Assembly: GCF_000376105.1 (NCBI RefSeq)
Contig: NZ_AQWM01000001.1
Coordinates: 186,001 to 250,000, forward strand
Direction of reading: 5' to 3'
Length of the DNA: 64,000 nt
Origin: Asticcacaulis benevestitus DSM 16100 = ATCC BAA-896
GTDB lineage: Bacteria; Pseudomonadota; Alphaproteobacteria; Caulobacterales; Caulobacteraceae
Part shown: positions 28,622-41,964 of the stretch, piece by piece
Position numbering within the stretch: the first letter of the stretch is position 1
How the letters are laid out: every line of letters begins with the position of its first letter
Notes under the pieces: model-generated
What the model was told of the DNA's origin: nothing
What the model saw: only the letters and a program-made list of their open reading frames with translations
Databases searched by the model: none
Position numbers and translations under genes: made by a program

Positions 28622-29259
28622 CGCCGGAAACCGTGGAACGCGCCATCGAGGCGCTTTTGTTCGCGGCCGATGGACCGCTGTCGGCGTCGGAAATCGCGTA
28701 TCGTCTGCCGGAAGGCGCTGAGGTCGGCAAGGCGCTGGCGGCCTTGCGGGCGCGCTATGCCGGCCGTGGCGTGGCGCTGGAAATCATCAACGACCGCTGG
28801 CAGTTCCGCACCGCCTCCGATCTGGGCTACCTGATGGTCGAGGAGCGCGAGGAGCCGCGAAGGCTTTCCAAGGCCGCGCTGGAAACCCTGGCCATCATCG
28901 CCTACCACCAGCCGGTGACGCGCGCCGAGATCGAGGCCGTGCGCGGGGTTGGCCTCTCACGCGGCACACTTGACGTGCTGCATGAAATGAACCTGATCAA
29001 GCTGCGCGGTCGCAGACGTAGCCCCGGCCGTCCGGTCACATACGGCACGACCGACGCCTTCTTGGAGCAGTTCTCTTTGCCCTCGCTGGCCGATCTGCCG
29101 GGCGCGGCCGAAATGCGCGCGGCGGGGCTGCTCGATATCAACGTGCCGGCCGATTTCATGGTGCCCGATCCCTCCAGTGGACAGACCACCGAAGATCCCC
29201 TTCTGCTTGAAGAAATGGAAGAGACCGAATTTGCCCAAGACTTTTTCGAGAAGGACTGA
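28618..29259 (+). CDS. scpB: Segregation and condensation protein ScpB
   Basis: A 213-residue ScpB with two winged-helix domains: VERAIEALLFAADGPLSASEIAYRL at the start, then ALETLAIIAYHQPVTRAEIEAVRGV and the GRPVTYGTTDAFLEQFSL motif. It partners ScpA and SMC in chromosome compaction and segregation. It begins at an ATGA overlap with scpA. The last codons encode DFFEKD-stop and are immediately followed by a second, out-of-frame copy of the same peptide and stop (29258-29278) with synonymous changes only. Confidence 0.96.
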   Translation: MTPETVERAIEALLFAADGPLSASEIAYRLPEGAEVGKALAALRARYAGRGVALEIINDRWQFRTASDLGYLMVEEREEPRRLSKAALETLAIIAYHQPVTRAEIEAVRGVGLSRGTLDVLHEMNLIKLRGRRRSPGRPVTYGTTDAFLEQFSLPSLADLPGAAEMRAAGLLDINVPADFMVPDPSSGQTTEDPLLLEEMEETEFAQDFFEKD

Positions 29260-29278
29260 CTTCTTTGAGAAAGACTGA
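29258..29278 (+). repeat. Synonymous out-of-frame copy of the scpB C-terminus
   Basis: GAC TTC TTT GAG AAA GAC TGA reads DFFEKD-stop. It follows directly, one frame off, after the scpB end GAC TTT TTC GAG AAG GAC TGA (29239-29259). Three base differences, all synonymous. The copies overlap by two bases. Origin unknown. Confidence 0.8.
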
Positions 29279-40600: not shown

Positions 40601-41239
40601 ATGGCTGGTTTTCTCGGTAATTTTCGCAATGTGATGCTGGCCAGTTTTCTGCTGGCGGCCTTGGTGATCTTTGGCTTCGGCAAGCACGGCGCGGGCTTCA
40701 ATGAGGTCTTTCTGATCGCCGTCATCCGCTGGGCGCACGTCCTGTGCGGCGTACTGTGGGTCGGTCTGCTCTACTATTTCAACTTCGTGCAGATCCGGGT
40801 CATGCCGGATATCCCCGCCGATCTTAAACCAGCTATCAGCAAGTATATCGCACCCGAAGCCCTGTTCTGGTTCCGCTATTCGGCACTATTTACCGTCGTC
40901 TTCGGCCTGATCTTGGCCTGGTTGCGCGGCTACATCGTCGAGGCCATGAGCTTTGGTTTCGTCAGCCTGACCGCCAAGGGCTATGCCTTCGGTTTTGACA
41001 GCGCTAATTCCCAGTTCATCTTTATTGGCGTCGGCATGTGGCTGGCCCTGATCATGTTTATGAACGTCTGGCACGCCATCTGGCCGGCGCAGAAGATCGC
41101 GCTTGGCATCCGCGAAGGCTTCACGCCGGAGCAGAAGGCCGCCGCGGCAAAAAAGGCCATGATGTTCAGCCGCATCAATACGCTGCTGTCTCTGCCCATG
41201 CTGGCGAGCATGGCCATGTACCAGACCATTTTCGGCTAG
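40601..41239 (+). CDS. PuuD-like (urate hydroxylase N-domain) membrane protein
   Basis: 212 residues with about five TM helices. The signature is VIRWAHVLCGVLWVGLLYYFNFVQ (about residues 44-67), followed by a conserved MPDIPADLKP and FRYSALFTVVFGLILAW, and later MWLALIMFMNVWHAIWPAQK. Full PuuD enzymes oxidise urate and carry an extra cytochrome c domain, absent here. So it is a membrane-domain-only homologue with unclear substrate. The stop is followed by a synonymous copy of its last six codons (41269-41289), and a short TTTTCGG-CTAGT-CCGAAAA hairpin spans the stop. Confidence 0.85.
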   Translation: MAGFLGNFRNVMLASFLLAALVIFGFGKHGAGFNEVFLIAVIRWAHVLCGVLWVGLLYYFNFVQIRVMPDIPADLKPAISKYIAPEALFWFRYSALFTVVFGLILAWLRGYIVEAMSFGFVSLTAKGYAFGFDSANSQFIFIGVGMWLALIMFMNVWHAIWPAQKIALGIREGFTPEQKAAAAKKAMMFSRINTLLSLPMLASMAMYQTIFG

Positions 41240-41268
41240 TCCGAAAACGGCTGGATCAACAAAAACTG

Positions 41269-41289
41269 TATCAGACTATTTTTGGATAA
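41269..41289 (+). repeat. Synonymous out-of-frame copy of the PuuD-like C-terminus
   Basis: TAT CAG ACT ATT TTT GGA TAA reads YQTIFG-stop, repeating the true gene end TAC CAG ACC ATT TTC GGC TAG (41219-41239) 29 bases downstream and in another frame. Five base differences, all in third positions. Confidence 0.8.
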
Positions 41290-41295
41290 ATTTGC

Positions 41296-41964
41296 GTGAC
41301 GTCCTCTGAATTGGTACCGAAGTCCGAGGACATTCGCCTGGCCTGCGCCTTCATCCCTGAAGCGAATAAGCGGGCCGACATACTGGTGCTGTTTGCTTTT
41401 CTGGAAACCCTGCGCGATATCCCCGAACGCGTCACCGATCCGTTGATGGGCGAAATTCGTCTGCGCTGGTGGTTTGAGGCGATTGAGGAAATCGACCAGG
41501 GTCGGGCGGTGCGTTACCATCCGCTGACCGAAGCGCTGAAGGCGATCATTGAGCGCTATAAGCAGGCGCCGAAGGACTTTTTCAACCTGATCGAAGGCCA
41601 GATGCCGCTGCTCGATAAAGGGCCGCTGACCATCAAGGACGCGCTTAGCGTCGTGGATCGCGGGGAGGGCGTTGTTTGCCGTCTGGCCGCTCATATACTG
41701 GGCGAGAGCGCCGACCTGACCGATATTGCCCGGCTCATCGGCATGTCGCATATCAAGGCCGCGCGCGGCTTGAGCGACGCCGGCGATATGGAATTTGCGC
41801 ACCTGAAACGCGAAGCCGTGAAGGCTGCCAAGGGAATGCCGGTGGCTGTCATGCCGCTGGCCTTGCCGGCCACTCTGGCAGGTGATTTATGGCATGGCCG
41901 GATGCCTGGACCACTTTCCAAGCGTTTGAGGCTGTTCTGGGCCTTTATCAGCGCCAAAATCTAG
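41296..41964 (+). CDS. Squalene/phytoene synthase family protein
   Basis: 222 residues, shorter than active synthases (about 280-300). Motifs: LVLFAFLETLRDIPERVTDPLMGEIRLRWWFEAIEEI (about 30-66, resembling the first Asp-rich helix, with only one Asp-type position), and VVCRLAAHILGES. The second metal-binding DxxED is absent, so catalysis is doubtful. In Caulobacterales a short homologue commonly follows secDF, and mitochondrial NDUFAF6 is a relative with complex I assembly function. GTG start six bases after the duplicated PuuD end. Confidence 0.8.
   Translation: MTSSELVPKSEDIRLACAFIPEANKRADILVLFAFLETLRDIPERVTDPLMGEIRLRWWFEAIEEIDQGRAVRYHPLTEALKAIIERYKQAPKDFFNLIEGQMPLLDKGPLTIKDALSVVDRGEGVVCRLAAHILGESADLTDIARLIGMSHIKAARGLSDAGDMEFAHLKREAVKAAKGMPVAVMPLALPATLAGDLWHGRMPGPLSKRLRLFWAFISAKI

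Follow-up and report, generated by a model that had tools for sequence, protein, structure and literature searches.

Duplicated 3' end of a PuuD-like gene in Asticcacaulis benevestitus and short insertions at gene ends in its genus

Integrative elements, such as prophages, ICEs and islands, insert at the 3' ends of genes and provide the gene with a new end in place of the old one. In integrons, attC sites and cassettes without an ORF are hairpins defined by their structure and occur in head-to-tail arrays, and quasipalindrome or template-switch mutations leave inverted copies beside their template. RAYT transposases mobilise REP and REPIN palindromes; for REPs tagged by CGTC, no transposase is known (PMC3733652). 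We analyzed a window of 64,000 nucleotides from Asticcacaulis benevestitus in which the end of a PuuD-like gene is present twice, and found that this duplication is one case of a recurrent pattern of short insertions at gene ends in the genus. The insertions are similar in anatomy: the gene tail now read, with its stop (T1), is followed by a stretch reverse-complementary to some of that tail, which allows a hairpin, by a mostly A-rich linker and then by a second tail farther downstream (T2).

Like integrative elements, these units target gene 3' ends, supply a new end, displace the old one and keep the gene intact. Unlike them, they come without visible element DNA, an integrase gene or long attachment arms, measure only 50-86 bp as a whole, use the gene's own tail as a hairpin arm and struck several genes in one genus. 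The structure-defined hairpins and head-to-tail arrays resemble those of attC sites and ORF-less cassettes; the units, however, target gene tails, and the attC core motif is not evident in them by eye. An inverted copy beside its template is also what quasipalindrome and template-switch mutations produce, but these mutations alone would give no synonymously diverged tail. As in the REP and REPIN systems (PMC3733652), the units are short ORF-less hairpins located at or downstream of coding ends and possibly moved in trans; REPs, however, are one sequence repeated in many places, while the unit hairpins take in coding sequence and differ from gene to gene and from strain to strain. Such a repeated palindrome was not found for the units, as their arms differ by gene and the puuD stretch is present once in its own genome: a query of positions 41180-41300, addressing the suggestion that the spacer might recur elsewhere, matched only itself. 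No published description of such units was found in the literature with narrow search terms, which test absence weakly.

The PuuD-like gene (40601..41239, plus strand) encodes a membrane protein of 212 aa with a Urate_ox_N domain and ends in T1, TACCAGACCATTTTCGGCTAG (41219..41239, plus strand), with the codons TAC CAG ACC ATT TTC GGC TAG. The displaced, out-of-frame T2, TATCAGACTATTTTTGGATAA (41269..41289, plus strand), reads TAT CAG ACT ATT TTT GGA TAA from 41269. A first-pass annotation of the window had reported this duplication of the YQTIFG-stop tail in another frame, and direct reading confirmed it, with 29 nt between the copies. The five differences (TAC/TAT, ACC/ACT, TTC/TTT, GGC/GGA and TAG/TAA) all fall at third positions, as had been noted, and any identical runs shared by the two tails are short. 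The accompanying contrast of C/G-ending codons in the gene and A/T-ending codons in the copy also holds, although it is not general, clpS pairs being mixed. The inserted unit would consist of T1 and the spacer, 50 bp in total (41219..41268, plus strand). A hairpin is predicted at 41217..41258 (plus strand), with the core arms CCATTTTCGG at 41226-41235 and CCGAAAACGG at 41241-41250, both on the plus strand. The A-rich linker, ACAAAAACTG (41259..41268, plus strand), is unpaired in the predicted fold. T2 directly adjoins the downstream flank, where a squalene/phytoene-synthase-like gene (41296..41964, plus strand) borders the unit on the right.

To place this site among relatives, 61 genomes, 25 of them from the genus, were searched for the PuuD-like gene, which is present in 35 genomes overall and in 14 of the genus (the other 11 genus genomes gave no match); 30 loci were cut out and read. 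The tail copy is found in two of these loci only, those of the window's genome (G000) and of G022. In G022, T1 is identical, the spacer is one base longer and T2 has decayed to YQTICG, by a change of F to C. In G024, G021 and G018, with proteins about 83% identical, the unit is absent and the stop is followed almost directly by the downstream gene. As none of the 30 loci contains a longer protein through both copies, the copy is not a simple frameshift, and the reading of a frameshifted longer protein was rejected. Going by these loci, including the changed T2 of G022, it is the first copy that is used, and the second decays.

Similar duplications elsewhere, the absence of which was to weaken a common mechanism, were found at clpS, pepF, purC, ppdK and a DUF805 gene, as named with Pfam. 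Extra clpS tails are present in 11 of the 24 genus genomes in which this locus is readable (the 25th, G010, stops at a contig edge), pepF units in 4 of 24 genus loci, purC units in two of 25 genomes (G020 and G022) and a ppdK unit in one of 25 (G020). The DUF805 gene of G014 carries two units ahead of its last tail, and none was found in the four relatives read (one of five overall). In the loci sampled, no unit was found outside the genus: none of 79 clpS loci with sufficient downstream sequence had a tail copy. The closest named clpS loci were from Caulobacter and other Caulobacteraceae, in a set that may omit records near the window's genome. Within the genus, clpS spacers vary by lineage, and an identical unit in two distant hosts was not seen. 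The puuD copy had also been described as a second case of a pattern seen after scpB. A duplication indeed exists there, with the tail DFFEKD* at 29239-29259 and its copy at 29258-29278 (29239..29278 together, plus strand), but the anatomy differs, as the copy lies in a 19-bp register without spacer or hairpin; this spacer-less form is found in 3 of 25 genus genomes. An ORF of G022 (L134, 11022), which we take to be BamB-like, ends in VAIH* and is repeated in a 19-bp register without a spacer, similarly to scpB.

Which of the two tails is new can be read from comparisons with uninserted relatives. At clpS, G006 differs from G023 by a single clean 71-bp insertion at the tail, in flanks that are 98-99% identical (297 of 300 bases upstream and 295 of 300 downstream). 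T2 of G006 matches the uninserted G023 tail in 41 of 42 bases, with the lone difference at the junction, while T1 differs from T2 at six positions and from the G023 tail at seven, all synonymous. T1 therefore arrived with the insertion and T2 is native. For purC, G022 differs from G000 by a 53-bp insertion with 292 of 300 upstream bases identical; apart from the junction base, the first mismatch is 109 bases away, and the differences between T1 and T2 are confined to the stop and one further base. In the DUF805 gene of G014, the inserted tails end in RIAEEATV while the last tail ends in RVVVEEPAT and resembles the ends of four relatives. Taken together, these three comparisons indicate that a discrete insertion brings the new tail along and that the old one is left behind. 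The earlier proposal of a supplied replacement end, with the displaced end downstream, thus stands at clpS, where the insertion is discrete, T1 was supplied and T2 is native and displaced, and extends to puuD by analogy. As the sample lacks a close uninserted relative for puuD, and as the G024 tail has three differences from T1 and two from T2 (the aligner set it on T1), we infer from the other genes that T2 is probably the native end of puuD and T1 the inserted one.

The differences between T1 and T2 were counted in 15 of the 19 units extracted, yielding 57 synonymous and 7 nonsynonymous changes, where random change is expected to give 9.9 and 54.1; this count is biased towards intact copies, as some units were found through peptide identity. 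The omitted units were clpS G009a (an internal array copy), DUF805 (a different end) and the second member of each of two shared events: puuD G022, where one change is nonsynonymous, and pepF G013. Three arrays were represented by their last tail. Against the trend, purC of G020 shows four nonsynonymous and no synonymous changes, and in ppdK of G020, T1 and T2 are the same. Some copies, such as these two, may be self-duplications.

All 19 units are 50-86 bp long and contain no ORF. Within the spacer lies a stretch reverse-complementary to a portion of the tail or to its start, and this inverted repeat is better than in shuffled spacers in 17 units (p <= 0.035, uncorrected), the exceptions being purC G022 (p 0.43) and DUF805 (p 0.345). 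In 11 of the 19, the arm starts 2 nt before T1 as cut; that of puuD lies nearer the stop rather than at the tail start (p 0.035 against shuffled spacers, uncorrected). The linker is 13-18 nt long in 17 units and 22 and 29 nt in the remaining two. Its first base is A in 15 units, and an NTG triplet is found within the final six spacer bases in 15 as well. In the predicted folds of most units, the tail lies inside one long hairpin and the linker is mostly unpaired, with DUF805 deviating. The spacer arm fits the T1 of its own unit better on average than the T1 of other strains (10.1 vs 8.2 for clpS; 10.8 vs 7.3 for pepF), and its mean fit to T2 (6.8 and 8.3, respectively) is below that to its own T1, although another strain's T1 fits better in 3 of 13 clpS and pepF units (clpS G000, clpS G020 and pepF G021). 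A search of Rfam with 10 loci carrying clpS, pepF, ppdK and purC units gave eight matches up to an E-value of 5, none of which reached the gathering score. The linkers of the clpS and ppdK units of G020 (L142 and L333) both begin with ATCTTAAG, which hints at a linker sequence tied to the lineage and not to the gene.

Could these tails resemble each other by chance, or stem from assembly? The control relied upon counted exact copies of the final six residues and the stop lying no more than 130 nt from the end of an ORF, with tails permuted among ORFs. The window contains two such copies as compared to none in 50 permutations, which excludes chance, and 850 kb of the window's own genome (4.99 Mb) contain three as compared to none in 20 permutations. 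G020 contains four, a number that includes a 113-bp repeat as well as ppdK, counted in two frames, and an outgroup of 1.33 Mb from 80 named alphaproteobacterial loci contains six, all in one tandem array (L219). With looser score thresholds, the excess over controls is little or none (e.g., 11 in G000 vs 2-11). As for assembly, the window's genome is in 100 contigs with an estimated contamination of 3.07%, which would speak for an artefact; however, the puuD copy is also found, with changes of its own, in G022, a separate assembly in about three contigs. We thus regard chance resemblance or artefact as refuted, with next to no probability left to it.

The first-pass annotation had taken the 29 nt to be what may remain of an integrative element. 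A large element with a conventional integrase that supplied T1 and was later deleted to about 30 nt would explain the foreign T1 and displaced T2, and in G018 the 3' end of a tRNA-Thr gene likewise recurs as a displaced copy. Neither a long form nor a donor supports this suggestion, all 19 units being only 50-86 bp. Integrase-carrying DNA was not found between the tails, which are separated by 29 nt at puuD, nor in the gap between clpS and clpA, of 92-363 nt in 24 measurable genomes. When 1.25 Mb were scanned for copies of tails at distances of up to 100 kb, the matches beyond clpS were flagellin paralogues, a single repeated pair and sequences of low complexity. Moreover, several genes share this short anatomy, each with an inverted repeat specific to the gene, which would hardly result from independent deletions. 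Searches for a phage or other source of the tail revealed no convincing donor: two exact degenerate patterns had no match in viral contigs, phage sequences gave two records at chance level, and plasmids gave one record for the clpS array and, for the puuD stretch, 24 records with short matches, the best of the 10 listed among these 24 (E 2e-3) lying within the gene and off the junction. We therefore consider a deleted large element unlikely. Fold-back template switching, in which the tail is copied twice with an opposite-strand piece between and the tails diverge later, seems to us slightly less likely again. It explains why the spacer arm has a sequence taken from the tail and is in line with the identical tails of ppdK G020 and the nearly identical ones of purC G022. 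However, relative to a sister with nearly identical flanks, clpS of G006 carries six changes in T1 and a single one in T2, T1/T2 changes are overwhelmingly synonymous, T1 of DUF805 codes for another C-terminus and the linker is not, by eye, a reverse complement of the upstream gene.

The resemblance of T1 to the tail of another species would also be expected if ordinary homologous recombination had brought in DNA from a related species and happened to stop at the gene tail. At clpS, G000 and G022 agree in 94 of the last 100 bases upstream of T1 and in 297 of 300 downstream, and this upstream agreement means that some recombination within the gene is possible. Yet recombination leaves the hairpin and linker unexplained, and T1 begins abruptly at the insertion, as shown by the nearly unchanged upstream flank of G006 and G023; we find this explanation improbable. 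The unit may also derive from a reverse-transcribed, tailed mRNA, which the A-rich linker behind the hairpin fits, but the tail is foreign. Programmed bypassing was rejected, as T1 has its own full end and stop.

We thus consider it probable that the puuD copy is a native 3' end displaced by insertion of a short unit into the last codons. Such a unit, ORF-less and 50 bp long at puuD, would enter the last codons of a gene and bring its own synonymous tail and stop, together with a mostly A-rich linker; its tail would pair with the sequence just past the stop to form a hairpin. The gene would then read the tail of the unit, while the old tail would leave the reading frame and decay. The unit may travel from one related species to another as a circle or as a single strand folded into a hairpin, recognized by its structure by a putative enzyme acting in trans; such hairpin-mediated mobility is a guess. 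Slippage between tails could later produce arrays or remove the unit. Besides puuD of G022, T2 carries nonsynonymous changes in clpS of G011 and G019 and in pepF of G002 and G021. Arrays of units with identical or near-identical spacers are found in G005, G007, G020 and G014 and look like products of slippage between tail repeats. In G000, clpS T2 differs from the G022 tail in 7 of 39 bases, all synonymous, despite the conserved downstream flanks, as might be seen if a previous unit had been inserted there and then lost.

Several other repeats were met. On the minus strand of L277 (18123-18198, G018), the last ~26 bases of the tRNA-Thr gene are found again some 95 nt downstream, and a GAACCCG inverted repeat separates the two copies. 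The serS 3' end of G020 (L300, near 19458) lies in 236-bp repeat units with a GC-rich palindromic stretch. In G014, G002 and G013 (L170, L171 and L173, near 2830), a 116-codon ORF ending in ALKGEQ* has a tail copy 34 bp on with a short spacer, possibly another, shorter unit. Scans for hairpins and repeats away from gene ends returned mainly the known units, the DUF805 unit, the tRNA-Thr end and unrelated repeats. An imperfect palindrome with 31-bp arms and an A-containing flank, MITE-like in look, is found in G000 (C1:368438) and G022 (stretch 388537). A 468-codon candidate ORF at C1:574731 was rejected, as its frame is unlike that of a real gene.

More tentatively, and with somewhat less than even confidence, the units might represent a new class of mobile DNA, namely gene-less hairpin cassettes of about 50-86 nt, each carrying one conserved gene end and moved between species of the genus by a recombinase or reverse transcriptase in trans. 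Their insertion would be harmless, as the C-terminus of the gene is carried within the element. If this reading of the insertions is right, the trick by which large integrative elements resupply a gene end would work at 50-86 bases that code only for a gene tail, and the minimal requirements of a mobile unit targeting gene ends would become testable, with the clpS end as a hot spot where the process could be caught. Local bursts of synonymous change at the ends of genes, by which phylogeny and annotation can be misled, would then find an explanation as well.
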